DNA of 64,000 nt from the NCBI GenBank assembly GCA_947561395.2, contig OX387185.1:20548366-20612365 (forward strand), read 5' to 3'. This DNA comes from Buxus sempervirens (lineage: Eukaryota; Streptophyta; Magnoliopsida; Buxales; Buxaceae). A model generated the notes under the pieces. It was not told where the DNA came from, made no database searches, and saw only the letters and a list, made by a program, of their open reading frames with translations. Of the stretch, positions 44-54,734 are shown one piece after another. Within the stretch, counting starts at the first letter, position 1. Each line of letters opens with the position of its first letter. The position numbers and the translations under genes were made by a program.

Positions 44-127
44 TCACTCGACAAAGTAATCCTCTCCTCTATACTCGGGGTAATCCGCGTCTGGCTCAAC
101 CCCACGTATATCGTCATCACCAGGATC
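44..127 (-). other. LTR-conserved acidic Tyr-rich mini reading frame after an acceptor-like site
   Basis: Read on the minus strand, TTTTCAG (127-134) is followed by an open frame of about 27 codons rich in D and E that ends in YRGEDYFVE and TGA. Equivalent frames, in the same phase relative to the AG, occur at 13653, 20944, 28660, 30767 and 37225. There is no upstream ATG in the visible frame, so translation would need splicing. Function unknown. Confidence 0.45.
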
Positions 128-12590: not shown

Positions 12591-13652
12591 TGTATAATAG
12601 GGACCCATTTCAGATACCAATTGCTAGTGAGCTATTCCTGTATCTGTTGATTAGTGGCTATCCCCATGTCCAGATTTTTGTGGCTGCATGCTTAGGTGGT
12701 ACATGCCAACTCCATACTTCAAATTCCAATTATTGTTATGTGAGTTCTTATCTAATAAGTCGATGTTCCGACTCCATACTTTAGATTACAGTTCCTGGCA
12801 TGAGAGTTGTATTACTGACTTCGCTCATAAGCCGTGAGGTGGCATAGTGAATGAAGAGCTTCTCTAAAAGACTTATTTTATTCGTAAGTCCTACAATTAT
12901 TGTCATGGTTTTGTTTATGAAATTGCAAATGACTTGGGATTGTTCAAATACACTAAGATTGAGATATTGTTGACTGTTCACATAAAGTAATTTAGCTTGC
13001 CTGTATGTCAAGTATTATTTTGGGATAGTTGCCGTGATATTGATGGTCGACAATATCTCCATTACAAATATGAGTTTTATATTGAGTTGTTACATGAATT
13101 TTGATTTATTTGTTGAGATTATATCGTGATTTATTATTTCTTTTGTCAAGCATGAAACTATGTTATTTTCATATATGAGAAAATGTTTATTCATACATGT
13201 GCTGCTTATTGGGATATTAGTATCTCACACCGCGATTTGTTTTGTTTTGTTTACAGCTAATCCACGTGAAGACATAGTTAGGGTTTATGCCTAGGGAGAG
13301 ATTCATAGCTGAGGACTATTATTACCCAGACTAGATTATTTTATTATTTGAGGTTATTATAGATGTTTATTTTGATGGGCACTTTATTTGGACTTGATTA
13401 TGAGAGTGAGAATTGGTAACGCCCCGGATCCGTGTTCTTCATTAAAGATATAACACGTCTCCTAGGGGTTAGTTAAGGATCTCAATAATGGTTATCGCTG
13501 GATAATCACCCGCCTTTTATATCATGTCAGAGTGCACAATTCAACATTTCTATCCAGGCAAGTTATGAAATCATCAAATGGTCCCAAGTTTACTATCTTA
13601 TTACAATCCTCAAAATTCAACTTAACAGTTTAAGACCGAGCAACCTGCTGGA

Positions 13653-13733
13653 CTAAGGTCGGTAGTAATAATCCTCCTCCCTATAGGTATCAGCCGGATC
13701 TACCCCTGTAGGCACCTCACCACGAGTATCTGA
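13653..13733 (-). other. acidic EDYYY mini reading frame in LTR
   Basis: After TTTTTCAG the frame encodes about 26 residues beginning DTRGE and ending REEDYYYRP before TAG. It is identical in the other LTR of the element (20944-21024) and nearly identical in the older solo LTR at 37225-37302. Other LTR subfamilies keep the acidic character and the final DYYY/EYYF motif. The upstream residues of the longer open frame (to 13874) are not conserved and are probably intronic or non-coding. Confidence 0.45.
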
Positions 13734-13939
13734 AAAACAAGTAACAACGAGGGAATGAGATACGAATATCCCAGCGAGTGACACATGCATGCATAAAATA
13801 GTTAACACAGTTATAAGACATGCTTCGACAAATAACCAATGATAATAACAACGTAAATTTCGATAACAACTCAAATCAGGTCAATGCCATGCATATGGTT
13901 ACATTGATTAATTTACATGCCAAGTAGACACTCCACACC

Positions 13940-14075
13940 TCCATGTACACAGTTCCCGGCCTACTCAGGGTATCGGAAACTCTGAAATGACGGCCTACTC
14001 AGGGTATCGTCATCCAGTGCCGGCCTACTCCGGGTATCGGCACTGACAACCAGGCCTACTCAGGGTATCTGGCTG
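13940..14075 (-). repeat. four stem-loops with CTACTCAGGGTAT loop
   Basis: Four copies of GCCTACTCAGGGTAT have different arms: an imperfect TTCCCG/CGGAA, a perfect ATGACG/CGTCAT (13987-14013), a perfect 8-bp CAGTGCCG/CGGCACTG (14015-14045), and CCAG/CTGG. The right LTR repeats them at 21240-21365. The related plus-strand LTR has them at 36830-36950. Confidence 0.7.
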
Positions 14076-14639
14076 CTCTACACTGGTCGTGGCAACACAC
14101 GTGACCATGCAATTACACCAACAAACACATACCATCACATTACTAAGCTTAACAAGGATCCATGGGAAGCTAAACCCAAACCGATAATTAACTGTTTAAA
14201 ATTCTGCATTAGTACACCTCACCCGTGGTTCCAACCAGAACATCAACTCACACAAGTGTTCCAACTAGAACAGAAACTCACAAGTGTTCCAACCAGAACA
14301 GAAACTAACACAAGAAATCAAATGAATAATAATTACAACCTCATTCAAAACTTGCCATCAAAACCAGGTTCCATAAACCAAATCAGGTACTAAACAATGC
14401 ATGTTTCAAGAGGAATAGAATAAAGCCCTAATAGGTGAACATCCGAGCATCCTCGAAATATTTCTCCACACTTACCTCATAAGCTTGTACTAAAACTAGT
14501 ACCTATCTCCATTGTTCTTACCAGCGAGATTTATTACCTCTAATGTTGAAATCTATTTGTTGGTTGAGTGGTTGAAGAACCCCTATTATCCAGAACACCC
14601 TTGGTTCTTGCGAAATTTTAGGATTCTGCATGAAAACCA

Positions 14640-14900
14640 CTGGGCGCTCACTTCCTGAGGTGGGCGCCAGGTGGGCGGTAAGTCCCTTTGTTTAACATGG
14701 AGCTTGCGCTCACCCGTGGACGAGTGGGCGCTAGCTAAGCGCCAGACGGGCGAGAGAAAAGCGCGAGATAGGCGCGAGAGTTGGAGGTAGGCGCGAGCTA
14801 GGCGCGAGGTGGGCGCTAGCTCGGCGCCGGGTCTGTTTTTCTTGGCGCTCACCTCCTAGGTGGGCGCTAGGTAAGCGCCAGCTAGGCGGTAACCCACTTC
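14640..14900 (-). repeat. GGCGC-rich cluster in LTR
   Basis: About 260 bp contain more than fifteen copies of GGCGC or GCGCC with linking words such as TGGGCGCTA and TAGGCGCGAG, in an otherwise AT-rich LTR. The same cluster is at 21987-22247. Single or paired GGCGC words occur at comparable places in the other LTRs (4790, 10604, 11355, 29465, 33970, 36045, 41497). Confidence 0.6.
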
Positions 14901-15825
14901 GATTTCCAGGTCTCTGTTAATGCCGGAAATCCAACTCTAGCTGTAATTTTTCAGTCTGTGACCACTTATATGGCCTCCTAATATTCCCAGGATACATCCA
15001 AACCAAATTTGAATTTAATCTAAATGATTTCCCAATTATCCCCAATTTCACTGTGCAAAACCAAAACCCTCCGTAACTAAAACCCTCCGTAACTGTGTTG
15101 CCCAGAAAACCTCAACATTAATGCAATTCAATACCATGATATCATTCAATGCATATACGAATAAATCCGAAACCTCGGTGGTAAAACAATGCCACTCACA
15201 AGTGTGCGCGATAAATCCCAGAATGATATTCTTCCTCGAAATCGGCCGATCACGATCCCGAATGCGCGAAGACGAAATGGTAGCCTAAATGTTAGTCGAA
15301 CTGTTCGCTGCTCATGACAGAGAAAACCCGCCTGAATCCAACTCGAATGAGCTTCTAGTAGTCCCTCAGACTCTTTCTCTTCCTGAGAATAACCCCAATC
15401 GCCATTTCCGCCGCAGTCGCCACAACTCTAACTCCAACGAAGATTTCCTCCGTAACTTACGCAAGTTACGCGTATCCCTACAACCCAAACCCTACTTTCC
15501 CCCTTGGGTATTTTTACCCCGCGAGACATACGCCGTTGGATGCATTTCCCCTTTTTCTCTTATCCGATGCGCGCTCGCCCACTAAAACCCCACATACTCG
15601 GCATCGACATATTAATTAAATTAATTAATACGTAAACACTATACAATAATTAATCATACGATAATACTAAATATTTTTCCGAAAAAATGGCTATATAACG
15701 CCTGTACATACGAGCATGGGCTAAGCCCTCAAACCACACTAAACACCTGATAAATACAGTTTATGTATATCAACAGAAATATAAAAAAAATGGACAACCT
15801 CACAAAAAAAAATCAGGGTCTTACA

Positions 15826-15839
15826 TCCTCCCCTCCTAC
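15826..15839 (-). other. polypurine tract of element A
   Basis: On the minus strand GTAGGAGGGGAGGA immediately precedes the 3' LTR start TGTAAGACCC. This is the plus-strand priming site. Confidence 0.85.
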
Positions 15840-15864
15840 AAAAATTTCGCCCTCGAAATTTACT

Positions 15865-16416
15865 TCAAGAAGGAACAATTAAGTCCGGATACCTCTTCTT
15901 CATCTCTTCCTCGCTTTCCCAAGTGCATTCCTCAGTGGAATGGTTTTGCCACAACACTTTCACTAAAGGTATAATCTTGGTGCGAAGGATCTGCTCACGT
16001 CGATCCAAAATCTGCACTGGCTTTTCTTCATACGACAAATCCTCCCGAATCGCTAAAGGCTCGGAATCTATCACATGACTAGGATCAGATATGTACTTTC
16101 GTAGCATGGAAATGTGAAACACGTCATGCACCCCTTCCAAGTGGCCCGGTAAAGCCAACCGATATGCTGCTGGGTTAATTTCTTTCACTATCTCATATGG
16201 ACCAATAAACCGGGGTGATAGTTTTCCTTTCTTCCCAAATCTCCTAATTCCCTTGGATGGTGAAACTTTCAAAAAGACCATACCTCCCACTTCGAATCTC
16301 AATTCTCGGTGTCTAGTATCTGCATAACTTTTCTGACGGCTTTGTGCAGTTAATATCCGCTGTCTGATGAGTTTTACTTTTTCCATACTGTCTTGAATGA
16401 TTTCTGGCCCAAAATA
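15865..16416 (-). pseudogene. integrase C-terminus and chromodomain segment of element A
   Basis: This is the last 183 codons of the polyprotein, downstream of an in-frame TAG at 16417-16419. It begins in the FGPE region that follows the integrase core, then shows the RQKSYAD and GPYEI motifs of the integrase C-terminal domain. It ends in a chromodomain-like stretch with VKVLWQNHS, CTWE and MKKRYPDL motifs and stops at 15865. A chromodomain in this position marks the chromovirus branch of Ty3/gypsy; the LTR length, PBS and motif wording favour the Tekay (Del) clade. The domain is thought to bind histone marks and steer integration to heterochromatin. Confidence 0.85.
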
Positions 16417-18504
16417 CTATTTCTCCCCAATCTCAACCCAACATACTGGTGATCTACATGTTCTACCATACAAAGCCTCATACGGTGCCATTTGGATGCT
16501 AGCTTGATAGCTATTATTGTAGGCGAATTCCACCAGATGCAAATACTTACTCCAGCCGCCACCCCAATCCAAAACACAACACCTTAACATATCTTCTAAA
16601 GTCTGGATAGTCCTTTCGGACTGTCCATCGGTCTGTGGGTGGAAACTAGTACTGAAACTCAGCTGGGTACCCATGGCCTCTTGGAAACATTGCCAAAAGT
16701 GAGATGTGAACCGGGAATCCCTATCTGACACAATAGACACTGGGACCCCATGTAACCTGACTATCTCCCGTGTATATAATTCCACCAATGATGCTAGATT
16801 TTGAGTAGTCGAATAAGGCAAGAAATGAGCGGATTTGGTCAACCTATCGACAATTACCCATATGCCATTGTGATTCTTAGCTGTAGGTGGTAACCCATTC
16901 ACAAAGTCCATTGTGACATGTTCCCATTTCCACTCAGGCACCGGTAGTGGTCTCATCAATCCTGGAGGCCTACGATGTTCTGCTTTTACTTGCTGACATA
17001 TGAGACACTTAGCTACAAACCCCGCAATGTCTTTCTTCATACCCGACCACCAATATACCCCCTTCAAATTCCGATACATCTTGGTGCCCCCCGGGTGAAC
17101 TGCATATTTAGACCTGTGACTCTCATTAAGTATCACTCCTTTGATCTCCTCGTCATTTGGAACACACATACGACCCTTAAACTTTAGCAGTCCATCCCTG
17201 ATCTCAAAGTCTCTAGCTGCTTCATCCCCCTTAGATACTAACTCTCGGGTACGTGTCAACTCCGCATCAGTCAACTGCCTATCACGAATCTGCTGTATCA
17301 ACTCAGGCTCCACCTGAACTCGTGACAAGATCAACCCATGACCGTGGGTGCTGAACTCTCCTGGCCAGTCTACCACTGTATCAACTAGAGTGCACTGACT
17401 AACCATAAAGCTAGCTAATGTGGCCACCTCCTCTTGGGAAACGCTCCTACGGCTCAAAGCATCTGCCACTACATTAGCTTTACCAGGGTGGTAATGAAGG
17501 GTAAAATCATAGTCCTTTAGGAGGTCCATCCATCTCCTCTGTCTCATATTCAACTCCCTCTGAGAAAATATATACCTCAAGCTTTTGTGATCTGAGAATA
17601 TCTCAAATGAAGCTCCCATCAGATAATGCCTCCATAACTTGAGTGCAAACACAATCGCTGCCAATTCCAGATCATGGGTAGGATAATTCTTCTCATGGGA
17701 GCGTAGTAACCTCGAAGCATACGCTACTACTCGCCTCTGCTGCATCAAAACACAGCCCAGCCCCACTCGTGAAGCATCACAATATATAGAAAATCCTTCG
17801 CTCACTGATGGAACAATCAGAACTGGAGCTGTAGACAGTTTACTCTTCAATTCCTGAAAACTGGTCTCACACTTCTCACTCCATTTAAACTTCACTGCCT
17901 TTTTAGTGAGATTGGATAAAGGTGATGCCACTCGTGAGAAATTTTCTATGAATCTCCTGTAATACCCAGCCATCCCCAAGAAACTCCGAATCTCTGTCAC
18001 AGATGAAGGTCTAGGCCACTCTACAACAGCCTGCACTTTAGCTGGATCTACTGCTATACCATTCCCAGAAATCACATGTCCTAAGAAACTCACCTCCCTC
18101 AACCAGAACTGACATTTACTGAATTTTGCATACAGTCGGTGCTCTCTCAATGTCTGTAGCACTGCCCTGAGGTGGTACATGTGATCCTCTCTACTCTGGG
18201 AATACACCAAAATATCGTCGATAAACACGACCACAAAACTGTCTAGGTAAGGGTGAAATACACGATTCATAAGATTCATGAAGACAGCCGGGGCATTAGT
18301 CAGCCCAAATGGCATAACCAAAAACTCATAATGCCCATATCGGGTGCGGAAGGCCGTCTTATCTATATCATCCGGCGCTACTCTCAACTGATGGTAACCC
18401 GATCTGAGGTCAATCTTAGAGAACCATGACGCTCCCCTCAATTGATCGAACAAATCGTCGATCCGAGGCAAAGGATACTTATTCTTAATGGTGACCTGAT
18501 TCAA
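16417..18504 (-). pseudogene. RT, RNase H and integrase segment of element A
   Basis: Open for 695 codons, in the same frame as the segments before and after it and separated from them only by TAG codons. The reverse transcriptase has the FIDD catalytic box at about residues 94-97 and MPFGLTNAP upstream. RNase H follows ([21 protein letters not shown]). The integrase has the HHCC zinc motif (HRSKYAVHP through CLICQQVK), the first catalytic Asp (MDFVNGLP), the second (SDRDSRF) and the Glu region ([13 protein letters not shown]). All catalytic residues appear intact. It would copy and insert the element if translated as part of the polyprotein. The first TAG lies between the tyrosine-arginine end of RT motif 1 and LNQV. 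Confidence 0.92.
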
Positions 18505-20550
18505 CTAGCGGTAATCTATACACATCCGCATCGACCCGTCCTTCTTTTGGACAAACAGGACCGGTGCACCCCATGGTGACACACTGGGCCTAATGAAACC
18601 CTTTGCTTCCAATTCCTCTAACTGCTTCTTCATTTCTTGGTTCTCAGGTTGTGACATTCGGTATGGAGGCTTGGACACCGGTGCCGTACCAGGTAAGAGT
18701 CGTATACTGAACTCAACCTCTCTAGATGGCGGTAAGCCCGGCAAGTCCTCAGGAAAAAGGTCCTCAAACTCTAATGCCACAGGCACACTAGAGAGACTAG
18801 GTGCCCCAGACTCTGCCTCCTCAACTTCAATGGAAGCAACCAAACTGATCCGTGCTCTTAGTCCGTCACATCGGAAACAGTGTATAGGCTGATCAGGTCG
18901 ACATACCATAACAGTACCCCGATGGCAATCTATATTCACATGATGCCTAAACAGCCAATCAATGCCCAAAATCACATCAAACTCCCCAAAGCTCAACTCC
19001 GCTAAGTCCCCTGGCAACTCTAAGGAACCTAGTCGGATCATGCAGTCTCTAAACACAGTCTGTACTCTAGTTGTCTCCCCCAATGGTGTGTGTACAAGCA
19101 ACTCAGACTCAAGTGTGGCAGGAACCAAACCAATACGAAACGCACAAGGTGGAGCAATAAAAGATCTAGAGGCACCCGAATCAAACAAACATATGGCCGA
19201 TCTACCATGTATAAAAAGAATACCTCCGACAAGCTGGGGTGCGCTCGGCTCCTCCTCCCGAGCCTCCTCTGTAAGTCCCCTCTCTGCCTCCCCCTCATGG
19301 GCTGCCACAGCATACACTCTCGTCTGCTGCTGCTGTGGGTGCATAGGTGGTGCATGCGGCCCCTGAGGTGCCTGCCTGCCCTGACGTCCGCCGCTGCTCT
19401 GACCCTGAAATCTCGGCGGTGCCGGTAATGCTGGTGCAGGTCTGGGATACTGGAATCGGGGAGCAGTATCTGACCGGTTGTCCCCCGGAACTGTGTTAAC
19501 GGTCTTGAGCAGTTGGTACGAGGCCGGGTGTGGGCATCCTGCCACGCGGTGACCGTGCTGACCACATCTGAAACAAGTTCCGGGTGGTGCTACACAGGGA
19601 CCCGGAATATGGAATCTGCCACAGTTAAAACAACCTCCATAACTCCTCCTATCTCTATCTCCATAAGACCCAGAACCTCCAGTATCAAGCCTCGGCCTTT
19701 TGTCCCTGTCAGGCATCCTTCGTGGCTCTGGAACGCTAGGCTGCGCTCTCCCTCTGCTCTGCTCTGGTCCTGAATCGCGGATCTCCCTCTCAACTCGTAG
19801 TGCTCTCCCGACTAGGTCAGAATACCTAGTGCACATCAATACTGAGACCATACGCCTGATATCGGCCCTCAACCCCCTTTCGAAGTGCTGAGTGCGTCTC
19901 TGCTCATCGTGGACGATGTGGTGCGCAAATCGAGAAAGTACCGCAAATCGGGACTCATACTGTGCCACGGTCAATGAGCCCTGAGAGATGTCCATAAACT
20001 CTCTCTCCTTCTGTAGCCTCACCTCAGCTGAGAAATACTGCTCGTAGAAAACCTGCCTAAACTGATCCCATGTCATCTGGATCCCCTCTGCTGTCCGCCT
20101 CCTCAAAGACTGCCACCAGTGTTGGGCCTCGCCCTCTAGTGTGAAAGTGGCTAATCGCACCTTCCGGTCCTCTGGGCAGTCCATGGTATCAAACATACGC
20201 TCAACCCTGGCCACCCAGCTCTCTGCCTCCAAGGGATCGGGGACTCCATGGAAGGGTGGCGCGGTCAACTTCCGAAACTGATCAATGTCCCTCAAGGACA
20301 ACTCATCTCCTCTTCGCTGCTGCTCTACATCTGCTCCCTGACCATTCCTGTGGTCATTCCCATTTCCATTTCCCGTGTGACTCATCCTTTCCTCCCTTTC
20401 CAAGGCAAGGAGGTTGGCAAGGGAGCCAACTGCAGCCCAGATATCCTCAACGGCAGGTGGAGCTCCTCGCGGAGGTGCAGGGGGCTGCTCCTGCGGTATA
20501 TCCTCCTCCTCCTGAGCTCTCGGGGGTCGGCCTCTGCCTCTGCCAGCCAT
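18505..20550 (-). pseudogene. gag and protease segment of element A
   Basis: Starts at ATG (20548-20550) with MAGRGRGRP, about 150 bp inside the PBS, and runs 681 codons to TAG. Residues about 80-250 form the retrotransposon gag domain ([27 protein letters not shown]). A CCHC zinc knuckle is at about 326-340 (CFRCGQHGH...C), preceded by a second CX2C pair. The aspartic protease motif FDSGAS is at about 456-461. The segment ends in the first part of RT (MRMCIDYR). A single-frame gag-pol is normal for this clade, so the TAG at 18505-18507 breaks it unless read through. Element B has TAG at the same codon. Confidence 0.92.
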
Positions 20551-20689
20551 GATTTCCTGAAATCAACAAACACCATATTAGTTAGGAGCTCTCTTCTATA
20601 CCTCATGGTTCACCCTAGCGTACACACAGTAATTTCCCCGGGTTTCCTAAGGTCGTACTACCTAGGAATCTCTAATTCCAGCTTTAAGT

Positions 20690-20700
20690 CTCTGATACCA
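20690..20700 (-). other. primer binding site, initiator tRNA-Met
   Basis: On the minus strand TGGTATCAGAG lies 4 bases inside the 5' LTR end (20705). This matches the 3' end of plant initiator tRNA-Met, as in most plant chromoviruses. Confidence 0.9.
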
Positions 20701-20704
20701 TCTC

Positions 20705-23176
20705 TGTAACGCCCCGGATCCGTGTTCTTCATTAAAGATATAACACGTCTCCTAGGGGTTAGTTAAGGATCTCAATAATGGTGATCGCTGGATAATCACC
20801 CGCCTTTTTATATCATGTCAGAGTGTACAATTCAACATTTCTATCCAGGCAAGTTATGAAATCATCAAATGGTCCCAAGTTTACTATCTTATTACAATCC
20901 TCAAAATTCAACTTAACAGTTTAAGACCGGGCAACCTGCTGGACTAAGGTCGGTAGTAATAATCCTCCTCCCTATAGGTATCAGCCGGATCTACCCCTGT
21001 AGGCACCTCACCACGAGTATCTGAAAAACAAGTAACAACGAGGGAATGAGATACGAATATCCCAGCGAGTGACACATGCATGCATAAAATAGTTAACACA
21101 GTTATAAGACATGCTTCGACAAATAACCAATGATAATAACAACGTAAATTTCGATAACAACTCAAATCAGGTCAATGCCATGCATATGGTTACATTGATT
21201 AATTTACATGCCAAGTAGACACTCCACACCTCCATGTACACAGTTCCCGGCCTACTCAGGGTATCGGAAACTCTGAAATGACGGCCTACTCAGGGTATCG
21301 TCATCCAGTGCCGGCCTACTCCGGGTATCGGCACTGACAACCAGGCCTACTCAGGGTATCTGGCTGCTCTACACTGGTCGTGGCAACACACGTGGCCATG
21401 CAATTACACCAACAAACACATACCATCACATTACTAAGCTTAACAAGGATCCATGGGAAGCTAAACCCAAACCGATAATTAACTGTTTAAAATTCTGCAT
21501 TAGTACACCTCACCCGTGGTTCCAACCAGAACATCAACTCACACAAGTGTTCCAACTAGAACAGAAACTCACAAGTGTTCCAACCAGAACAGAAACTCAC
21601 AAGTGTTCCAACCAGAACAGAAACTCACAAGTGTTCCAACCAGAACAGAAACTAACACAAGAAATCAAATGAATAATAATTACAACCTCATTCAAAACTT
21701 GCCATCAAAACCAGGTTCCATAAACCAAATCAGGTACTAAACAATGCATGTTTCAAGAGGAATAGAATAAAGCCCTAATAGGTGAACATCCGAGCATCCT
21801 CGAAATATTTCTCCACACTTACCTCATAAGCTTGTACTAAAACTAGTACCTATCTCCATTGTTCTTACCAGCGAGATTTATTACCTCTAATGTCGAAATC
21901 TATTTGTTGGTTGAGTGGTTGAAGAACCCCTATTATCCAGAACACCCTTGGTTCTTGCGAAATTTTAGGATTCTGCATGAAAACCACTGGGCGCTCACTT
22001 CCCGAGGTGGGCGCCAGGTGGGCGGTAAGTCCCTTTGTTTAACATGGAGCTTGCGCTCACCCGTGGACGAGTGGGCGCTAGCTAAGCGCCAGACGGGCGA
22101 GAGAAAAGCGTGAGATAGGCGCGAGAGTTGGAGGTAGGCGCGAGCTAGGCGCGAGGTGGGCGCTAGCTCGGCGCCGGGTCTGTTTTTCTTGGCGCTCACC
22201 TCCTAGGTGGGCGCTAGGTAAGCGCCAGCTAGGCGGTAACCCACTTCGATTTCCAGGTCTCTGTTAATGCCGGAAATCCAACTCTGGCTGTAATTTTTCA
22301 GTCTGTGACCACTTATATGGCCTCCTAATATTCCCAGGATACATCCAAACCAAATTTGAATTTAATCTAAATGATTTCCCAGTTATCCCCAATTTCACTG
22401 TGCAAAACCAAAACCCTCCGTAACTAAAACCCTCCGTAACTGTGTTGCCCAGAAAACCTCAACATTAATGCAATTCAATACCATGATATCATTCAATGCA
22501 TATACGAATAAATCCGAAACCTCGGTGGTAAAACAATACCACTCACAAGTGTGCGCGATAAATCCCAGAATGATAGTCTTCCTCGAAATCGGCCGATCAT
22601 GATCCCGAATGCGCGAAGACGAAATGGTAGCCTAAATGTTAGTCGAACTGTTCGCTGCTCATGACAGAGAAAACCCGCCTGAATCCAACTCGAATGAGCT
22701 TCTAGTAGTCCCTCAGACTCTTTCTCTTCCTGAGAATAACCCCAATCGCCATTTCCGCCGCAGTCGCCACAGCTCTAACTCCAACGAAGATTTCCTCCGT
22801 AACTTACGCAAGTTACGCGTATCCCTACAACCCAAACCCTACTTTCCCCCTTGGGTATTTTTACCCCGCGAGACATACGCCGTTGGATGCATTTCCCCTT
22901 TTTCTCTTATCCGATGCGCGCTCGCCCACTAAAACCCCACATACTCGGCATCGACATATTAATTAAATTAATTAATACGTAAACACTATACAATAATTAA
23001 TCATACGATAATACTAAATATTTTTCCGAAAAAATGGCTATATAACGCCTGTACATACGAGCATGGGCTAAGCCCTCAAACCACACTAAACACCTGATAA
23101 ACACAGTTTATGTATATCAACAGAAATAAAAAAAAAAAAAATGGACAACCTCACAAAAAAAAATCAGGGTCTTACA
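20705..23176 (-). repeat. 5' LTR of element A
   Basis: 2472 bp, TGTAACGCC...TCTTACA. It is longer than the other LTR by about 60 bp, mainly because of two extra 28-bp repeat units at about 21565-21655 and a longer A run near 23130. All motifs of the 3' LTR are present (acidic frame 20944-21024, TTCG hairpin 21048-21063, donor-like site 22539-22546). Confidence 0.94.
21520..21662 (-). repeat. 28-bp tandem repeat of CAACCA stem-loops, expanded
   Basis: The unit contains TGTTCCAACCAGAACA, a 5-bp stem TGTTC/GAACA with loop CAACCA, followed by GAAACTCACAAG. Five stem-loop copies are present here and three in the partner LTR (14230-14305), so copy number changed since insertion or during reverse transcription. 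Confidence 0.8.
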
Positions 23177-27047: not shown

Positions 27048-27809
27048 TCAACGATGTTCCTTGTCTCTCCTCCCTGCCGAGGCAGGCGAGCCAGACAACG
27101 AAGCGAGCAAATTCAGATGATGCCCCTGTCCAATCGGAAGATAATTCCCAACCCTTGCCGCCGACGCTTCTCCCACAGCCTGCTGCATGAACCTCCCGGA
27201 AATCGTCGGCTGCGATGCCACCACAGGTGTCGGCATAACCATCTCCGGCGCAGCCGCGAAGCTCCAGACCTGACCGAAATCCGGCCGAGCCGGGACAGCC
27301 CAAAAAGCCCCAGCAGTGGGACCCACAGGAGAAATTGCACCAACAGCGTCGTCCTTTGCACCGTCCTCTGTATCATCGTCGGTGCTGAGCCGCTTACCGA
27401 GTATAAACGGCGTCGGACCAAGCATCGGAGCATTAGGCTTCTGATCAAGACAAGCAGACATGGACGTAGTAGTAGAAGAGCCTCTTACCGAGACCGAAAC
27501 AGTCGAGAAACTCGCGGGCGTAGTTCCAGTCCCCGTCGCTGCGATGATCGATGGCTCGGCTTGACGGAGAAGCCATTCGATAGTCTGGCCGTCGGACTTG
27601 TGGCCAAGTTCTCTTGTGAGCTGGAAAACCCTAGCGGCGCAGATGATCGGCATGCGTATGCGCCGTCCACGGCCGTCGACTTTACTGTGACGATCCTTGG
27701 ACGGCGGTTTCTTCACCGTTAGAGCCCCGTTACCCGGCGGCTGCTGCCGTTGCGGGTCCATTAGAGCACCGTTAGTTGCGCCGTTTGTTGCACCGTCGGT
27801 CTTCGACAT
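27048..27809 (-). CDS. class I TCP transcription factor, TCP7/TCP21-like
   Basis: A single-exon frame of 253 codons, ATG at 27807-27809, TGA at 27048-27050. The TCP basic helix-loop-helix domain spans about residues 34-92: basic region [17 protein letters not shown], helix I with [17 protein letters not shown], helix [20 protein letters not shown]. The class I signature is clear, including the conserved Cys at residue 57. The C-terminal half keeps the [14 protein letters not shown] motif and the [24 protein letters not shown] motif, which in Arabidopsis characterise TCP7 and TCP21 (CHE). Such proteins bind GTGGGNCCC-type sites in the nucleus and control cell growth and, for CHE, the clock gene CCA1. 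Length is normal for the group (about 240-250). The frame appears intact. Orthology to TCP7 versus TCP21 is not settled here. Confidence 0.95.
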
Positions 27810-28366: not shown

Positions 28367-28809
28367 TGTAATACCGTGAATTTGGATCCATGCCCCAATG
28401 CACCAAACCCGAACCCGAAGTGCTATTATGGCCCAAAGCATCGAATACCAGACAATAATCACATATAATTCATCAGAATGCAGAAAATAAAACATCAAAA
28501 TCAATCAATAATTAAGCGTAGATAATTGAAACCTCAAACCATATCAACAGTAGCCACATAAAACACAAGTATGGTAAAAAGGGTTTCTATCTCACTGTCT
28601 CATCAATAAAACCAATCAAATAGTAATAATGTTAAACAATCTATAACAACCTCAACAAACTAATTGGGGTAATAATAGTCCTTTGAACGATATTCAGCAA
28701 ACTCCCCCTGTGTATCAACCTCAAGGTCGTCTTCACGTGGATCAGCTGAAAACAAAACACGGATGAAATACGAATATCCCAGTAAGCAGTACTATGCATC
28801 AATAAAACA
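28367..28809 (-). mobile_element. minus-strand Tekay-like LTR fragment
   Basis: It starts TGTAATACCGTGAATTTGG (compare TGTAACGCCCCGAATCC at 8910) and is cut at 28810 by the LTR of element B. It holds the intact acidic mini frame (28660-28747), an acceptor-like site (28746-28752) and the conserved hairpin (28765-28780). The rest of this LTR is not seen in the window. Confidence 0.6.
28660..28747 (-). other. acidic EYR..DYYYPN mini reading frame in LTR
   Basis: After TTTTCAG, the minus-strand frame is open for 28 codons, rich in D and E, ends EYRSKDYYYPN and stops at TAG. It is intact although this LTR belongs to a different subfamily from element A. Confidence 0.45.
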
Positions 28810-30724
28810 TGTAAGACCCCTAATTTTCCTAAATAATTAAAATAAAATAATAATTAATATTCTTGAGGATTTTTATTGATGGAAATAATTTATTATTGTA
28901 GGTGATATTGTTATTAGTGGAGATCAAGAGTTTGGCGTAGATCCGACCGTCCGATCGTGAGATATCGAGGTAAGATAAATGTTTTAATTCTGTTGTGTTT
29001 TGATTGGGCGAGCGTGTGGAGTTTGATGCACATGCGTTGCATGGGATTAGAGGGTATATAAATAAGTTAAATACCCTAGTTGTATACGGTGGTCATACCT
29101 ACTCATATATTGTTTTGTATTCATTAGCCACCAGAGAGAGTGCACGACTGAGAATGACCATGGATGACCAGAGAAGAAGAAGAGAAGAAGAAGGGAGAGA
29201 GTTTCTGGTTGAGTTTCATCATGCTTAGAGTGCCTTTGCATCTATGTTAGTCTCTGTTCGGAAGAGGAAGAGAGGAAACGCACGATTAAGGTAGGTAGCA
29301 CCTGTTTTGTCGCTCATTTTGTATTCCTTGGTTATTCGAGTCGTATTGCATGATTTGATGATAGATTTGTATGTATATAGCTTGATTATGATCATATATT
29401 TATGTTAGAATCGAACAAAACACTTAAAACTGGGTTTTAAGTGTTGCTTAGCCATTTTTCTATAGGCGCTAGCCTCCCTGTGCTCAGCGCCCCTGAGTGT
29501 CGATCAGTACCCGTATTAAAAACTAGATCGCCAACCATCGCTAAGATATAGTAGGTCCACATTCAAATTTTGAATTAGCGCTAACCTAGAGCGCCTAAGC
29601 ACCCTTGAGCGCCCATTGCAGAAAAAATCAAATTTTTAGAATTTAATTCCTGATTCAATACCAAACAATTTTTAATGAATTTTATTAGTTAAATGAGATG
29701 TTTTTAAGTCAAAATAAATTACCAATTACCCTGTTTTGCAGAAAAATAAAATAGGGAGTTATTTAGGGTATTAGTTGCCGAGATTTTTAAATAATGAGGA
29801 AATCTAAGTTTTATAACAAACATACTGATAAATTGGGTTAATTAAATTATGAGACATTATATTAGATATTATTAACCAGATTTCTATATATTGGACATCC
29901 ATATCAGAATTTCAACCCTGATAACCCGATATTGAACAAAATTACAGATTTACCCTTTATATGCCGATAGGCACTATTATTTACAGAAGATTAGTCCTTA
30001 GGGATTTTTGGTGTCTAGTGGGCATAGCTGGTTATGGATCCATAGTTTTGGCTAGATAGCTAAGGGATATTTCATTTGGGTTGAGTTTCTGCCTTGTGCG
30101 AGCGCATTTCCTTTGCAAGTTTGGTTGCATTGGAGGGTCCCGTGTCCGTAGGGTCATTTCGAGCCTCGCTGGTGATACCTATGCACGTGGATTAGCGGTC
30201 ATCTCCATGTATTGATTTCGATGCTGCATGCCGGTGGTTCATGCCAACTCTGTTGAGTTGTGCGCAATAAGTCGATGACTACGGCTCTTATCTAAGGAGA
30301 TGTCTCGGGTTTGAGTATCATTAGTAGCATCGCCCCTAAGCCGCATGGTGGTATAACAATTGTTTGAGAGTCATCTCAAAGGTTTATCTATCTTTGTGAG
30401 TCCTATAATGACATGGAAATCATGAATACTGATTATTATTAATTTGTCACATGCTAGAAGCATGTGTCTAATATTATACAGTTGGATGTGACTACTTAGT
30501 ACATCCTAGTTTTATTTGGACACGAAGTTGTCTACATTATTTGGATTATGCTGTTAAATTCTATATGTTGGTTCTTATTATAAATTCTGCTATTCTCTGA
30601 TACTTAGAAATGATTTAAAAGCTTATTTGTATTTCAAGATCGTTGTGAATGTTTATACGAGCCTGCTTATCCGTAATTGCTTAATCATGCATGAACTGTT
30701 TATAGCATGCATGTGTTTCCTACT

Positions 30725-30740
30725 GAGATATTTGTATCTC
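30725..30740 (+). other. conserved LTR hairpin, perfect 6-bp stem
   Basis: GAGATA-TTTG-TATCTC. It precedes the pyrimidine tract and acceptor-like CAG at 30765-30767 by about 25 bases. Confidence 0.55.
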
Positions 30741-30766
30741 ACCCTACCTCTTTATCTTATTTTTCA

Positions 30767-30859
30767 GCTGATACGCGAAAGGGGGATCATAGTGGTGATT
30801 TCCAGGGTAATTTGACTGACTTTTCACCAGAGGAGTACTATTTTCCGAATTTGATTTGA
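30767..30859 (+). other. acidic mini reading frame in LTR B
   Basis: Open for about 30 codons after the acceptor-like site. It begins ADTRKGD, ends PEEYYFPNLI and stops at TGA. It shares the D-R and E-Y-Y/F-P-N pattern with the frames at 28660 and 37225. Confidence 0.4.
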
Positions 30860-31133
30860 GGTTGAGGAGTGATGAGGACTTATTATTTTTTTATAGTTAT
30901 TTTGGTTATTTGGTTTTGATGTATCTGAGAGATTGAGAGTTTTAGTAACCCTTTTGATACCAGACTTGATTATTTGGATTAAATGGTTTATTTCATTCTT
31001 AAGTCTGGATATTTATTGATGATTGAATTGATATGGGCCCAGTAGCATCTTGGATTCGGGTTGTTACAGTAGCGAACTAGATTCGGGTTGGGTGCCAGTT
31101 TTGCACTGACTCGGGTTTGGGGCGTTGCAGAGG

Positions 31134-32759: not shown

Positions 32760-35746
32760 TGTAAAACCCCGAATTTCCACCTAATAAATAATAAATAAAA
32801 GAAAATATGAGTTAAGTCCTAGTTAAAATAAAAAAGTGAAGATTTAGAGGATAATTAATTCAAATAAGTCATAAGTTGTAAATAAAGAAAGAATTTTAAT
32901 GAAATTAGCCTAAAAGAATAAAAAGGGTATTTTGGTAATTTTCAGAAAAGGGTAATTAATAAATAGATCAGTAAATAATAACTAGAATTTGAAAATAGAA
33001 GGAAATAATTTATTTTGACAATTTAGAAATTAAAATAAATTAATAAAAGCCTAAAAGTGGGAAAAAGGGTAATTAGGAGATTTCACGTATTAATTTGGAG
33101 AAAATAAGGTTTTAGGTGATATTTAATGTTTAAGTGATTATTAGGCACGAAAATAGCTTGTAAAGAGTGTTTAGATAATAAGAGAATTGATTAATATTGT
33201 TTTAGTAGAAAAATAGAAGGTGGAGAAAAAGTAGGAATTAAATTAGAAGGTGTTAGACATTAATTAGACTATGGTTGGGTTAGCCCAAATTAAAGTAGCC
33301 AATTAGGGTTGGTTTAGGACTTCTAAAGCCTAGTATAAATAGGAAACTAAGGTTAGAAAAGAGGGAAATTTCGTGGGTTTATTATGGAGAGAAAAGAGGG
33401 AGAGAAAGGAAGAAGGTGGCTAATGGAGGTGTCTGACCAGCCATCATCAAAATGCGATCGGGAAAAATCCGTACGGTGGATTGCCTTCACATTTGGAGGT
33501 TTTGATCTTCACTGATGGAATGACATTGTGTACGGTGGAGATTTGAATTGGAAGACTCTAGCTTGGTGCGTTTGGGAGCAAACGTCAGGTCCAGAATTAG
33601 AAATTTCAATGGAAGAAGGATTTAGCGTATAAGGCAAGTAGTAACCCTTGGAAAACGTGAGGAATTGCATGATTTTGTTTTCTGTGATTTAATATTGATT
33701 GAACGGATTAGTCGGAACAGTATTTACATGGAATCAAATTGGTTATATGTTATTGATTGATATTCTTGAAGGATTTGTTGAAATAAAGAAGAAAACTTGG
33801 TTTAATCATGAAATTAATTATAGGATGGTATTTAATTAACATGAATTAATCTAGAAGGCTTTAGGAATGTTTTAGAATGTTATTAGATTGATTTAGACCA
33901 AAGAAACCTATGGCAAAAGCATAAAAATCCGAACTTTGTAAATCTGGAAATTTTCTGTTTAATTTTGCACGAGCGCCTAGGATCGCCCAGCCCTGTAGAG
34001 GTCGGCGCTTTAGGTAAAATTTTGCAGATTTTAGGGATTTTGTAATTTTTATAAATATCCAATAATTTTTCTGATTAGTTAAGCATGTTAGCATCTTTAT
34101 AATGACCTAATTAAGGTATAAAAATTATAAAATTAAAGGGGAAAGATTATCCAATAAATTGAAGGTTTCAATGAAAGGATTGTTTATAAAAGGGTCAAAG
34201 GGTATGGATATTGCTAGAAATAATACTACTGATACTTATAGCTTATAAACATCTTTTAGACTTCATTTTAGGTCTGTAGGACATGCTGGAAAATAAAAAT
34301 ACAGAAAAGTTAAATAGAAACTAATTTAGGTGTTAAGATAGGAAATTTGATTCTAATAAAGGGATTAATAAAGAAAACTCTAAGTAAGATTTGATTTCCT
34401 TTAATTTTAGCTTTAATATGAATATTTGTTTATGGAATTGAAGTAACATTGTTTTCTATCGAATTTATGATACATGAGCTTTACTTTGAATATATTTGGG
34501 AAATTGCATAAGGAATTCTAAAAAAGGCTTCATTTGGAGTATTAAGGATTGAATCATGATTTTCACTTGGAATTGAATATTCTGGTATGGATTGGTATGT
34601 GGTATGAATTATTAGCTTTTCTTTTACGGTTGAGTGGTACAGCTTTTGTGGTAAAGTTTGATACTATCTTTTACGACAGAGATGGGTAATCCTCTGTGTA
34701 GAGATGTGTAATTCTTTACGGGTAAAAGTGTGTATGCCTCCTACATTAGCGTGTCCTCCCGTATGTGGTTTTGTCGTGTTTTGTGTCAGTGGGCTTAGTT
34801 GTATATGGATCCATAGTTTTGGCTGGTTAGCTAAGTGGTATTTAGTTTGGGTTGAGTTACTCCTATATGCGAGCGCGCTTCCCTTGCAAGTTAGTTTGCT
34901 CTGGGAAGGTCCTATGTCTGGAGGGACATCCCGGTGTGCCGCTGGTGATTCCTTGTACATGTGGATAAGCAACCATCTCCATGTATTGATTCTGGTGCTG
35001 CATGCTGGTGGTACATGCCAACTCTGTTGAGTTCGTGCACAATAAGTCGGTGACTACGGCTCTTGTCTATAGCTGCGCTGCATGGGGCTTGAGTATCATT
35101 AAGTAGCACTGCCCTTAAGCCGCACGATGGTATAATAGTTAGTTGAGTGTCATCTCAAATACTTATCATCTTTGTGAGTCATGCAATGGCACGTGTTTTA
35201 TCGCTTTTGTCGGTTTTACCTCGTTAACATCAAGTTACTGGTATTTATACATGATCATCTGTTTTATCGCTTTACTTGGAATTACCATGGATAACTTGGA
35301 TTTCTCGTCTTATCGTTGTTTAATCGAATACCTCATGACTATTTGCTTACATTGGACTGTTTCAAGTTGCATGCACCTACTACTTGCTGAGATGTAAATC
35401 TCACTCCGTTTTCCCCTATTTTTTAGGTTGCCTGGAGAGATCGCGAAGATGGGGTTTTAATATGATGGGTAGAATTGAAATTGGTATTAATGTCACATGT
35501 TGATTAAATAAACCTTATTGTAAACTGAATTGATATTATTGAATAAAGAATTGTTTTATTGGCCACCATAACTCTGATGTAATTAATTAGTAAAGTTTAA
35601 ATTATTGTGAATCTTGGTTTGTATCTGACCCCAGATTCGTGGTAACACCTCGGGTTTGGTTGTTGAACCGGACTTGGGTTGTTACAGTAGCGAACTGGGT
35701 TCAGGTTGGGTGCCGGTTTGCACTGACCCGGGTTCGAGGCGTTACA
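32760..35746 (+). mobile_element. solo Tekay-like LTR nested in another solo LTR
   Basis: TGTAAAACCCCG...GAGGCGTTACA, 2987 bp, is flanked by CAAGG (32755-32759 and 35747-35751). It has a TATA-like GTATAAATAGG at 33341, donor-like AAG|GCAAGTAGTAAC (33631-33645), the core near 34790, stem-loop ACAGAG/CTCTGT (about 34675-34700), the hairpin GAGAT-GTAA-ATCTC (35389-35402) and an acceptor-like TTTTTTAG. The acidic mini frame is lost. Confidence 0.9.
35389..35402 (+). other. conserved LTR hairpin with GTAA loop
   Basis: GAGAT-GTAA-ATCTC, a perfect 5-bp stem. As RNA the loop is GUAA, a GNRA tetraloop. Other copies in the window have UUCG. Confidence 0.55.
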
Positions 35747-36829
35747 CAAGGCTTTGGAGCGTATAATGGTGAGTAGCATCTTTTTGATCTGATGTTTTGG
35801 GTTTTGTCTATTAGGTTTAGCCATATGCATGATCTCGGAAAATATCGATTCGCACATGGTTTTTGGAATAATTTTAGAGGCGAAAAATACATGTTGATAG
35901 ATTAATTTTGAATCGTGTCTAATAGTCTTTTGAAGATGGTAGAAGTATAGGAGAGTCATTACAGAGGTGAGAAAATGGGACAGTCATGGAGTTTTGGGAT
36001 TTACAGAGAGTCGCGAGTCGTAGGGTGTGTCCGCCGAGTTGGCACCTACCTAGCGCCAAGTGTATGAGTTAGCGCGAGATAGCGTTTTGGGTTTCGCCGA
36101 GTTGGCGCTCATCTAGCGCCAAGTATATTTTGTTAGCGTGAGTGTTATTTGGGGTTACCGCCGAGTTCACGCCGACCTGGTGCCAACTGCGCCGAGGTCA
36201 GCGCACTCACCAATAAATACAGTGAGTTGCGGCTGTTCATATTGAGTCTATTTTTGATACTTTAGGGATTAAATCTTTTTGCCAAAACCTAGATTAGGAT
36301 ACTAGAGGTATCTTAAGTTAATCAAAAACCTTCGTAGATATAATTACATGAATTGTGGTTTCTACAAGGCAAGTTTGGGAAACTATTGAATTAAATTACT
36401 GTTCTAAATGCCATGAGTTAATGACTTATTTTTCAATTATGTTTTATATTTGTTTCCAGTTTATGAACTCGTTTTAATCAGGGTTTGCGTGATTTCAAGT
36501 GCTGAGCCGTATGTGCCACATTATCTTCGTGCAAGTAGAAAAAGAGGTTTTATTACCAGTGGACTTGTGTTTTGGGATTAGAATAATTACTGAAAGTACA
36601 TGAGGTACTGTTTTGGTCTGGAGTGACCTGTGTTGAGTTGTATTGTGTTATACATGATGATGGAAATGTTTGGTTTAAATGTGATGTCAGGGTTGAGTTT
36701 ATACGATGGTTTTTCTGTTTTGGTTTAGCTTGTCCTGGATCCATGTCTAAGCTTAGTAATGTGATGGTATTATTTGTTGGTGTAATTGCATGGCCTTGTG
36801 TGTTGCCACAACCGGTGTAGAGCAGCCAG

Positions 36830-36950
36830 ATACCCTGAGTAGGCTTGGTTGGCAATGCCGATACCCAGAGTAGGTCGGCATTGGATGACGATACCCTGAG
36901 TAGGCCGTCATTTCAGAGTGTCCGATACCCTGAGTAGGCCGGAACTGTGT
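36830..36950 (+). repeat. CTACTCAGGGTAT-type stem-loop array, plus orientation
   Basis: Four copies of ATACCC(T/A)GAGTAGG. One has arms CAATGCCG/CGGCATTG (36853-36883). The matching stem in element A is CAGTGCCG/CGGCACTG, a double change that keeps pairing. The ATGACG/CGTCAT-type stem is retained in the next copy. Confidence 0.65.
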
Positions 36951-37224
36951 ACATGAAGGTGTGGATGTCTCCTTGGCATGTGAATTAACCAATTTAAGCA
37001 ATATGCATGACATTGACCTTTCGTTAATTTATTAGTATCGTGGTTGTTATTTGATGGGAACTATTATCAGACTTCTGGATTTCCATTTTGTACTTATCTC
37101 TATTGACGTATTGGTGTTGGTTATTTATCGAAGCATGTTTATAACTGTTGATAACTATTTTTGCATACATATGCTACTCGCTAAGATATTCGTATCTCAT
37201 TCTTTTGTTTTTGCTTTGTTTTCA

Positions 37225-37302
37225 GATACTCGTGGTGAGGCGCCTATTGGGGTAGATCCGACTGACACATATAGAGAGGAAGACTATTACTACAATCCAT
37301 AG
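37225..37302 (+). other. acidic EDYYY mini reading frame in solo LTR
   Basis: Begins DTRGEAP after TTTTCAG and ends REEDYYYNP before TAG. It differs from the element A version by a few substitutions, with no frameshift. Confidence 0.45.
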
Positions 37303-52299: not shown

Positions 52300-54734
52300 T
52301 TTGAGGATTTCAGCCTTTTGGTGTTAGTTCATGTTTTTGATATTTTGGATTTGCTTGCTATTTTGTGTTCTTAAGTATGTTGGGTATGTTTTAAATCTGA
52401 ATTATGGCTTAAGAATTCATGGGGGTAGAAACCTGTTTAATTTTGATTTATAGGATTGTTTCTACAAACATGCGTAGGGGAGGTTCGTTTTGCTGAACCA
52501 TGTTTATTTCTTGCTATATTTTAATGATAGCATGTTTTAATTTTCAGCATGATCTCCATGATGCATTTTTGGGTGTATAATATGATCATATGTTTGCATG
52601 ATTAGATGATTTTTTTATGAGCATGTTTTAGGTGCTATAAGATTGTTTTGTGTATTTGTTTACTTTAAATATGCTTTCCTACTATGCCTTGGTTTGTTTA
52701 TGCATGGCTGCGAAAAGAGTGGCAAGGGTTTGGGACGTTGTGAATGCACCCTATTTTTACAATGCACTGTGCACATTTTATTTTTTACACAGCCTACCCT
52801 TAACCTATAGGAAGTTGAACCCGAATGTGTGTAGCTTAGCGCAACAAGGTCGATACTTCGGAAAGCGAAAGTGAAAACATTCACCTTAGAACTTTGAGCT
52901 AATGATGTGATGATAACGTGGATCTATGATTCTGGTCATCACTAGGCTTGAGCGATAAGTTGCAATTAAGCCAAAACCCAAAACCCCTACGCTTGAAGGT
53001 GGAGTTACACGTTTTTGGCTAAAGTACACAATTACGTGGGGATATGGGCTTGTAATTGTGGGAAGGCCGTTTGCATGGCTTACAAACCAGGGCATAATGC
53101 GGATGCCATAGTGAAGGTAAACAAGGTAACAAGGTAATCCTATTTTTCTATATTGTTTTCATGTCATAGGGGTGTCATGGTGTCCATCAATTCGGGATAA
53201 AATTGGTCCCAAAATATGCATGTTTCCTAAAATTGGTGTAGCCCATAGGAAGAGTTTTTAACTCTGTTTAGAATCAATCCTACCCAATGTTCATGCAAGA
53301 GTCAACAAAAGGGTACCAAATTCTTGAGTATGGTGTCAATTTGGAGGGTACATGTGCCCTCCTAAACATGTGTTTTAGCAAAAAGGTCAAGGTCCACTTT
53401 GGGACAGTTTAGAAGCTTTGCAATGGGTGAATTGTATGTTTGGATGAGCAATTAAAGTGATCAAACCATGTAAAAACTGAGAAAACATAAAAGAGCTCCG
53501 TAAAACTGCATTTGATACACGGGCTAGACTCGTCCGTATTAGTTATACGGGCTGGGTTCGCCCGAGTTTTCCATACGGTCACGGCTCGCTCGTAATTTGA
53601 ATACGGGCAGGGCTGGACCGTACTGTGTATACGGTTTTCTCAGAAAATTCAATTTTAATCAGTTTTTCCCACTAAATCTTAGTCTTTTAACCTTTAAATA
53701 ATGATAAAGGGAAATGAGTTTGAATAAAATGCTTCAAAAAAAAAAGAAATGTAAGAGAAAATCCTTTGGGCCTCTGAAAGCCTTTGAATTTCAGACTTTT
53801 TCTCAAAAACTCTTTAGGCCTCTGAAAGCCTTTGAATTTCAGACTTTTTCTCAAAAAACTCCTTGGGCCTCTGAAAGCCTTTGAATTTCAGATCTTTTGG
53901 GCCTCTGAAAGCCTTTGAATTTTAGATCTTTTTCCTTTGGGCCTCTGATAGCCTTTGAATTTCAGATCTTTTGGGCTTCTGAAAGCCTTTGAATTTCAGA
54001 TCTTTTGGGCCTCTGAAAGCCTTTGAATTTCAGATCTTTTTTTTCCTTTTGGGCCTCTGAAAGCCTTTGAATTTCAGATCTTTTGGGCCTCTGAAAGCCT
54101 TTGAATTTCAGATCTTTTTCTTTTGGGCCTCTGAAAGCCTTTGAATTTTAGATCTTTTGGGCCTCTGAAAGCCTTTGAATTTTAGATCTTTTGGGCCTCT
54201 GAAAGCTTTTGAATTTCAAATCTTTGGGCCTCTGAAAGCCTTTGAATTTCAGAATTTTTCTCAAAAACTCCTTGGGCCTCTGACAGCCTTTGAATTTCAG
54301 ACTTTTTCTCAAAAACTCCTTGGGCCTCTGAAAGCCTTTGAATTTCAGACTTTTTCTCAAAAACTCTTTGGGCCTCTGAAAGCCTTTGAATTTCAGACTT
54401 TTGTCAAAAATCCCTGGGCCTCTGAAATCCTCTGAATTTCAAACCTTTTCCAAAAATATCCCTGGGCCTCTGAAAGCCTTTGAATTTCAGACCTTTTTCA
54501 AAAATACCCCCAGGCCTCTGAAAGCCTTTGAATTTTAGATCATTTTCTCTTTATTGTGGGACCTGTTGGAAGCCCTAGAATATTCCAACAATTCAATTCA
54601 AAAAAAGAAGAAGAAAAGAAGCAAATAAAGAAACAAAATCCAAACTTGTGTTCACCCAGCTTGCACATAGGCATTCCTAGGCATGTGAATGAAATTAATT
54701 GGGCACTGATATTTTTCCTTTATCTTTTTGCTAG
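52300..54734 (+). other. long 5' leader of element C
   Basis: A 2.4 kb stretch between PBS and gag without a credible gene and with many ATG triplets. It contains a TACGGGC cluster resembling LTR U3 (53518-53640) and a 19-copy minisatellite (53768-54540). It ends in a pyrimidine tract and AG (54721-54734). Ogre elements can carry an extra ORF here; none survives in this copy. Confidence 0.6.
53768..54540 (+). repeat. 19-copy minisatellite in the element C leader
   Basis: The unit core is GGGCCTCTGAAAGCC then TTTGAATTTCAGA. Two unit lengths are mixed: about 34 bp (core plus TCTTTT) and about 46-48 bp (core plus CTTTTTCTCAAAAACTCCTT). Long units sit at both ends of the array and short units in the middle. 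Copies differ by only a few bases, which implies recent amplification. Confidence 0.9.

Follow-up and report, generated by a model that had tools for sequence, protein, structure and literature searches.

A probable, optionally spliced leader intron inside the long terminal repeats of Tekay-type chromoviruses of Buxus sempervirens

An intron that lies wholly within a long terminal repeat (LTR) is a paradox for an element that multiplies by copying its RNA, since a spliced genome would lose the intron from the new LTR. The Tekay-like LTR retrotransposons in a 64,000-nt stretch of the Buxus sempervirens genome (contig OX387185.1, positions 20,548,366 to 20,612,365; hereafter the window) raise this question directly, an earlier note on the sequence having proposed a conserved intron within their 5′ LTR transcripts. 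Here, we ask whether the putative splice sites are conserved as an intron would require, what lies between and behind them, and how such an intron could persist. Our analysis suggests, with a probability of roughly three in four, that the LTRs of Tekay-type chromoviruses hold a real, maintained and optionally spliced GT-AG leader intron of ~1.4–1.9 kb, which would separate translated from genomic RNA. The clade label 'Tekay' is taken over from the earlier note and not from a reverse transcriptase (RT) tree.

Donor and acceptor sites at fixed places in the LTRs

The Tekay-like LTRs share a common donor of the form GTRAGTRGCAY or GTAGGT, and all nine donors listed earlier were found in the sequence. 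Seven of these match GTRAGTAGCAY with no or one mismatch (5887, 6234, 11867 and 15199 on the minus strand; 29291, 35769 and 41223 on the plus strand), while the remaining two comprise a site with two mismatches (22546, minus strand) and a GC donor, AAG/GCAAGT (33634, plus strand). The bare motif is weakly enriched in the window, with 49 matches at two or fewer mismatches versus a mean of 37.5 in shuffled sequence (2/100 shuffles reach 49); the donor signal is one of position, not frequency. In family 1 (eight copies, pairwise identity 0.57–0.89), the hexamer GTGAGT is identical in every copy, and the column identity of the six preceding bases ranges from 0.32 to 0.75. In family 2 (six copies, identity 0.67–0.87), for which the alignment was made without requiring the motif, GTAGGT is likewise invariant (6/6), the representative in LTR H being AAG/GTAGGT (29291..29296, plus strand). 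The flanks of the hexamer have a mean identity of 0.65 in family 1 and 0.62 in family 2, and the hexamer is the best conserved block there. Scored with a plant donor matrix, the donor is the best or second-best GT in 13 of 18 copies, and the nearest TATA-like box lies 132–317 nt upstream of it in 13/19 copies (in LTR H at 29055..29064, plus strand).

The eight acceptors of the earlier note also proved to be real (those at 8391 and 13254 on the plus strand, that at 28747 on the minus strand), and three more were identified beyond that list (9131, minus strand; 7222 and 35427, plus strand). Their layout consists of a hairpin, GRGATA-UUCG-UAUCUC or a variant, followed by a pyrimidine tract and YAG, ~0.2–0.5 kb from the end of the LTR. 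In LTR H, the hairpin GAGATA-TTTG-TATCTC (30725..30740, plus strand) directly precedes the tract, and in LTR E the corresponding hairpin is GGGATA-TTCG-TATCTC (13757..13772, minus strand). Over 11 sequences, 60 of 63 stem pairs can form, with loops and stem lengths varying between families; the hairpin is one or two bases shorter in LTRs J, K and B, a length difference that speaks against this stretch being coding. Searching the window with a profile of the region gave exactly 11 hits at E < 1e-20, including the LTR pair of one element, and YAG is present in all of them (9 CAG, 2 TAG). With the YAG columns masked, the same 11 were recovered together with six in three other 10-kb stretches, YAG being present in 17/17, a result that is only partly independent, because pattern hits guided the choice of the stretches and YAG copies served to train the profile. 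The pattern of hairpin, tract and YAG has 6,446 matches in the 676.5-Mb host genome (3,236 + 3,210) and none for the reversed control; LTR context was checked in those copies that were fetched. Both the donor (GT(R)AGT or the GC variant) and the pyrimidine tract with its YAG occupy fixed homologous places, the arrangement expected of a U2-type GT-AG intron.

Pairing of these sites yields proposed introns of 1477 nt in LTR H (29291..30767, plus strand), 1526 nt in LTR F (21021..22546, minus strand; GTGAGTGG...TTTCAG) and 1470 nt in LTR E (13730..15199, minus strand). The three spacings of 1.46–1.53 kb reported earlier are thus borne out in length, but two of them come from the two LTRs of one element (13416–23176, minus strand), both of which retain the proposed intron. 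In LTR I, the donor and acceptor delimit 35769..37225 (plus strand), the 5′ part of this LTR being displaced, and LTR K carries a GC-AG version, AAG/GCAAGT ... TTTTTTAG (33634..35426, plus strand), in which the exon peptide described below is not present. In total, a donor lies at a suitable distance from five of the 11 acceptors in the window (13729 and 21020, minus strand; 30768, 35427 and 37226, plus strand), and none was assigned to the other six; the listed donors at 5887, 6234 and 11867 (minus strand) and 41223 (plus strand) have no listed acceptor 1.4–1.9 kb downstream. A donor was assigned in 16 of 20 fetched genomic copies, 1392–1941 nt from the acceptor, and in four of six further copies. 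Base composition changes across the donor: the 150 nt before it are 25 % T and 58 % purine, and the first 150 nt of the intron are 40 % T and 48 % purine (n=18). Plant introns are usually T-rich.

A similar layout may exist outside Buxus. Seven contigs in bacterial assemblies (L001–L007), filed under Mycobacterium, Geminicoccus, Solirubrobacter, Streptomyces, Robertmurraya and two metagenome-assembled genomes, encode a related chromovirus-like RT and probably represent plant contamination of those assemblies. By eye, L001 contains CCAG/GTAAGT, with a putative intron from 5345; L002 contains a TATA box at 6065 and AAG/GTAAGG, with a putative intron from 6224; and L003 contains an acceptor, CCCTCCCAG, ending at 1166 behind a hairpin, GAGCAA...TTGCTC, in which two pairs are altered on both sides and hence compensated. 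L002 and L003 are 99 % identical over 5.8 kb, and combining their coordinates on paper puts the intron length at about 1.8 kb. The intron layout is therefore probably common to the window LTRs and L001–L003, although the sequence differs.

A coding exon behind the acceptor

Directly after YAG, in the frame x/NN, LTRs of several families encode an acidic peptide with an aromatic end, ...EDYYYP-stop. In LTR H, the exon reads ADTRKGDHSGDFQGNLTDFSPEEYYFPNLI-stop (30767..30859, plus strand) and is in phase 1, with a first codon base that the upstream exon would supply. LTR F encodes DTRGEVPTGVDPADTYREEDYYYRP-stop (20944..21021, minus strand) and LTR E the same peptide (13653..13730, minus strand), while the exon of LTR I reads DTRGEAPIGVDPTDTYREEDYYYNP-stop (37225..37302, plus strand). 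Two LTRs with no assigned donor also encode it, LTR G as ADPREDDLEVDTQGEFAEYRSKDYYYPN-stop (28660..28746, minus strand) and LTR A as DPGDDDIRGVEPDADYPEYRGEDYFVE-stop (44..127, minus strand), and further genomic copies encode DTRGEAITGVDPAEAYREEDYYYLP and ADTREGDLLDFQGEIAEYSPEDYYYPDLF, among others. The peptide is intact in 18 of 31 copies (6/11 in the window, 12/20 fetched), plus three of six further copies. A protein search with the exon peptide gave no candidates, and searching a viral sequence collection by motif and by RT gave nothing usable.

The exon is under purifying selection in family 1, starting at the AG. For exon 2 of this family, the ratio of non-synonymous to synonymous differences (pN/pS) is 0.24 over four disjoint pairs (Fisher p < 0.0001), and for the pair E/I the non-synonymous (dN) and synonymous (dS) values are 0.10 and 0.69 in the exon but 0.29 and 0.21 in the 60 nt before the AG, read in the same frame. 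Moreover, the distance from the hairpin to the AG covers all three values modulo 3 (14, 10 and 6 of 30 copies), whereas the frame of the exon is fixed to the AG, suggesting that coding begins at the AG, as a splice acceptor predicts. In family 2, sliding windows over the exon gave pN/pS values of 0.32–0.37. A conserved coding exon inside the LTR is a new and unexpected addition to the picture of a 5′ leader intron, which is incomplete as first drawn: in many copies, the acceptor is followed by coding sequence, which a plain intron of the 5′ untranslated region would not explain.

Proposed mechanism and its rivals

The proposed intron spans the GGCGC and stem-loop regions, so their removal would follow from splicing, as the earlier note had said. 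Between 900 and 150 nt upstream of the acceptor, 22 of 31 copies carry a GGATCC hairpin; in 15 of these it sits in a perfect 10-nt palindrome, of which there are three versions (CTGGATCCAG, ATGGATCCAT and GTGGATCCAC), and in seven it does not (L047, L049, L052, L061, E, F and I). In intron H, GGATCC occurs at 30036..30041 (plus strand) within the palindrome ATGGATCCAT, and in intron E at 14156..14161 (minus strand), with outer bases that are not palindromic. In family 1, the intron additionally contains several hairpins in a row, whose 17-nt loops are near-identical (GATACCCTGAGTAGGCC, GAAACCCTGAGTAGGCC and close variants) but whose stems differ and partly compensate; E, for example, has TCAGTGCC/GGCACTGG as stem 2, and L055 has TCAATGCAG/CTGCATTGG. 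Intron E contains four such stem-loops (13952..14076, minus strand; loops GATACCCTGAGTAGGCC and a one-base variant), three detected by script and the fourth read from the sequence. The same script, which also prints many chance stems, did not reveal the row in A, C or J. The GGATCC hairpin and the family-1 row are candidates for dimerisation or packaging signals that would be lost on splicing.

We propose that transcription would start from a promoter upstream of the LTR intron and that the resulting RNA would have two fates. Splicing would remove ~1.5 kb comprising the structured region and many AUGs (32 and 34 in the introns of F and H, versus 10 and 13 in the exons, with start sites assumed), leaving a spliced RNA fit for translation of Gag-Pol. 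Packaging and copying would fall to the unspliced RNA, which retains the intron, since reverse transcription of a spliced RNA would yield an LTR without it. Within the intron, the GGATCC hairpin, and in one family the hairpin row, would serve as signals for dimerisation and packaging, to be lost by splicing in the way known from retroviruses. Of the conserved LTR intron proposed at the outset, the position and conservation of the sites and the number of acceptor matches are shown directly; the selection boundary at the acceptor in family 1, the contrast between exon and intron and the layout in the probable copies from other species likewise point to a real intron, whereas splicing itself and the function are inferred.

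Several observations weigh against this interpretation. Some donors score poorly by the plant donor matrix (rank among GTs: E, 16/135; L047, 12/131; L059, 17/137; L046, 15/135; L063, 33/162), and several are weak on the exon side. The expected donor position is empty in four of the 20 fetched copies (two with the motif at 2.2–2.3 kb, two with none) and in two of the six further copies, and the TATA-like box is 370–484 nt from the donor in 4/19 copies and was not found near it in 2/19. The exon peptide is broken or absent in 13/31 copies, in 3/6 further copies and in L003, and over three pairs of family 2 the exon pN/pS is 0.69 (p = 0.15, not significant, with crude treatment of gaps). The profile and motifs derived from the window found no match in L001–L007, where the layout was recognised by eye. 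When the sequence is read across the junction, a stop codon directly precedes it in 4 of 19 copies (H, L050, L051 and L062) and occurs within three codons of it in six more. Finally, the earlier note had suggested comparing the GT and AG with their neighbouring bases in family alignments; the two sites do stand out in this comparison, but part of the donor and YAG conservation arises by construction, because family-1 donors were located by motif pattern and genomic copies were fetched by a pattern requiring YAG, and the profile, too, was trained on copies with YAG.

The rival explanation that best survives assigns a role to the donor only: U1 small nuclear ribonucleoprotein bound at the LTR donor would suppress premature polyadenylation in the 5′ LTR, in the manner of foamy viruses, and the acceptor region would be a separate polyadenylation or structural element. 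The donor is indeed upstream of most of the LTR and its hexamer is the best conserved block in its surroundings, and in foamy viruses the major donor precedes the polyadenylation signal of the LTR, according to the available excerpt of PMC3694450. However, this explanation does not account for the conservation of YAG, for a pyrimidine tract that varies in length or for a reading frame fixed to the AG, and we consider it improbable.

A second alternative concerns the partner of the coding exon. Since a conserved terminal coding exon starts at the acceptor, an upstream coding exon should be joined to it in some of the spliced RNAs. Exon 1 is unlikely to be that partner, as none of 19 copies has a plausible start codon: in 18, no in-frame ATG follows the last stop in the 330 nt before the donor, and the exception, L056, has one 265 nt before the donor but upstream of its TATA-like box. 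A scan for a coding exon elsewhere in the LTR identified low-pN/pS windows mostly at the GGATCC/hairpin stretch, nearly all with stops, which we read as RNA structure; a few others lie close to the end of the LTR and at −1009. A continuation of pol into the LTR was also rejected, since the family-2 LTRs stop after seven codons in that frame. In L070 (G000:C1:18659500-18660400), the pol frame continues without a stop across the polypurine tract and as far as the first codons of the LTR, and related LTRs stop seven codons in. A strong donor-like site in the U3 region, ~270–320 nt upstream of the main donor, is present at position 28970 (plus strand) and in the family-2 LTRs L049, L056, L060 and L065, where it adjoins a conserved GATCCGACCGTCCGATC-like stretch. 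The family-2 U3 stretch 'RSDRPILRYR' before a donor-like site was dismissed as a partner, as it has no start and is separated from pol by stops.

As neither exon 1 nor the LTR scan provided a partner, it may be located beyond the LTR and be spliced to the 3′ LTR acceptor. A speculative candidate, to be taken as a lead only, is the donor-like GAG/GTATTC in phase 1 at the Gag/protease border (19218..19223, minus strand). Splicing of the 3′ LTR acceptor to this donor (GGA G/GT ATT) would produce a short Gag mRNA with the acidic LTR peptide encoded by its last exon and set the Gag:Pol ratio; the 5′ leader intron may then be an additional use or a by-product. The phase of the coding exon and the lack of a plausible start in exon 1 are consistent with this, as is the presence of a phase-1 GT in all nine sequences in which the border was found (E, the plus copy, L066, L067, L068, L001, L003, L005 and L006; L067 and L068 are near-identical, and the protease motif was not found in L004 or L007). 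The glycine codon at the border is GGT in five distant families in which the GGT share is 0.19–0.39, giving a product of ~0.0014 calculated by hand for a site chosen after looking. Conversely, the codon belongs to a conserved glycine, the donors are mediocre (GAG/GTATTC, CG/GTACGC), L003 has the site but no peptide, and some host copies were cut out by the motif itself. On balance, we regard this explanation as possible though unlikely. A combined version, in which the LTR module is used twice, is also rather unlikely: in the 5′ LTR it would act as an optional leader intron with dimerisation/packaging signals, while the acceptor of the 3′ LTR would give Gag the acidic ...EDYYYP tail via the Gag/protease-border donor, setting the Gag:Gag-Pol ratio in a single-ORF (open reading frame) element.

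It is quite improbable that the pattern reflects nothing but the shared ancestry of amplified LTRs, with splice-like sites arising by chance. The copies are related and the donor motif by itself is only weakly enriched in the window; however, the sites are invariant among family-1 copies whose identity over the LTR can be as low as 57 %, the probable copies from other species display the layout with different sequence, and selection changes at the AG. An unspliced small ORF, starting from an ATG just before the hairpin and encoding a hydrophobic stretch (the tract supplying T-rich codons) and an acidic tail, is very improbable and was rejected. Such a frame does reach the peptide from its ATG by way of the tract in E, F, H and I, as well as in the broken copies B and D. 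It is not preserved, however, as the length of the tract falls in all three phases as given above; it is out of register in A, C and G, and dN exceeds dS before the AG in the pair E/I.

Setting in the window, known systems and meaning

The window is plant DNA consisting mostly of old nested LTR retrotransposons, with fragments of several further families around the main elements. The sole complete element (13416–23176, minus strand) is bounded by a 5′ LTR (F, 20706..23176, minus strand) and a 3′ LTR (E, 13416..15825, minus strand), which are 96.9 % identical by LTR comparison. Its gag-pol (15865..20550, minus strand) is interrupted by stops; Pfam searches returned the order Gag, protease, RT, RNase H and integrase across three consecutive minus-strand ORFs, followed by a chromodomain at the end of the integrase (PF00385, E value 4.8e-07, residues 125–170 of the last ORF), as expected for a Ty3/gypsy chromovirus. 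LTR H (28810..31131, plus strand), a 5′ LTR of ~2.3 kb that starts with TGTAAGACCC, belongs to another family; its end was placed from the position of the adjoining primer-binding site, TGGTATCAGAG, and the gag start follows 3′ of this site. A second acceptor-like CAG was observed at or a few bases from the gag ATG (20557, minus strand; 31254, plus strand; and L057), and a further leader intron ending near this ATG is possible. Elsewhere in the window, a 253-residue ORF with a TCP transcription factor domain is situated amid the retrotransposons (27048–27809, minus strand), a tandem array with many overlapping direct self-matches, 70–83 % alike, occupies 53758–54552, and an additional retrotransposon with an RT, a second RNase H (RVT_3) and an integrase core is found at 61121–63289 (plus strand).

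The proposed arrangement is reminiscent, in part, of several retroviral systems. In retroviruses of the human immunodeficiency virus type 1 kind, the packaging signal is downstream of the major splice donor and genomic RNA is distinguished by sequences that splicing takes out; in the present elements, the LTR would contain the donor, the intron and the acceptor alike. Mouse mammary tumour virus sag is an LTR-encoded protein expressed by splicing; the likeness is that of protein coding in the LTR, although only a terminal exon of 25–30 residues is seen here. The foamy virus donor is likewise in the LTR, upstream of the polyadenylation signal, but in an animal retrovirus for which the available excerpt describes no acceptor or coding exon in the same LTR (PMC3694450).

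Among plant elements, LTR retrotransposons are described as generally lacking introns (PMC12786077). Ogre (Ty3/gypsy, Tat lineage), EVADE and, in sunflower, Tyran and Varan have spliced introns, and the excerpts available do not locate any of these in an LTR (PMC7730604, PMC6317226, PMC12786077, PMC3601003, PMC7644871). EVADE and other elements with a short GAG mRNA resemble the present case in that alternative splicing yields a subgenomic Gag RNA, but EVADE belongs to Ty1/copia and the portions of those accounts that were available do not place its intron in the LTR (PMC7730604, PMC12786077). No description of an intron inside an LTR was found in the literature searched, which excluded most subscription papers, and the sole phrase match was a paper on a lentiviral vector.

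The examined copies and the thousands of acceptor matches suggest that the intron is maintained; if so, splicing and copying must be kept apart. If the proposed leader intron is real, a single promoter would give both the translated and the copied RNA, offering a testable answer to how single-ORF plant chromoviruses split their RNA between translation and packaging, and perhaps to how they make more Gag than Pol. For annotation, it would also call for caution, as genes nearby can acquire ready-made splice sites from such LTRs, together with a promoter and a coding exon.

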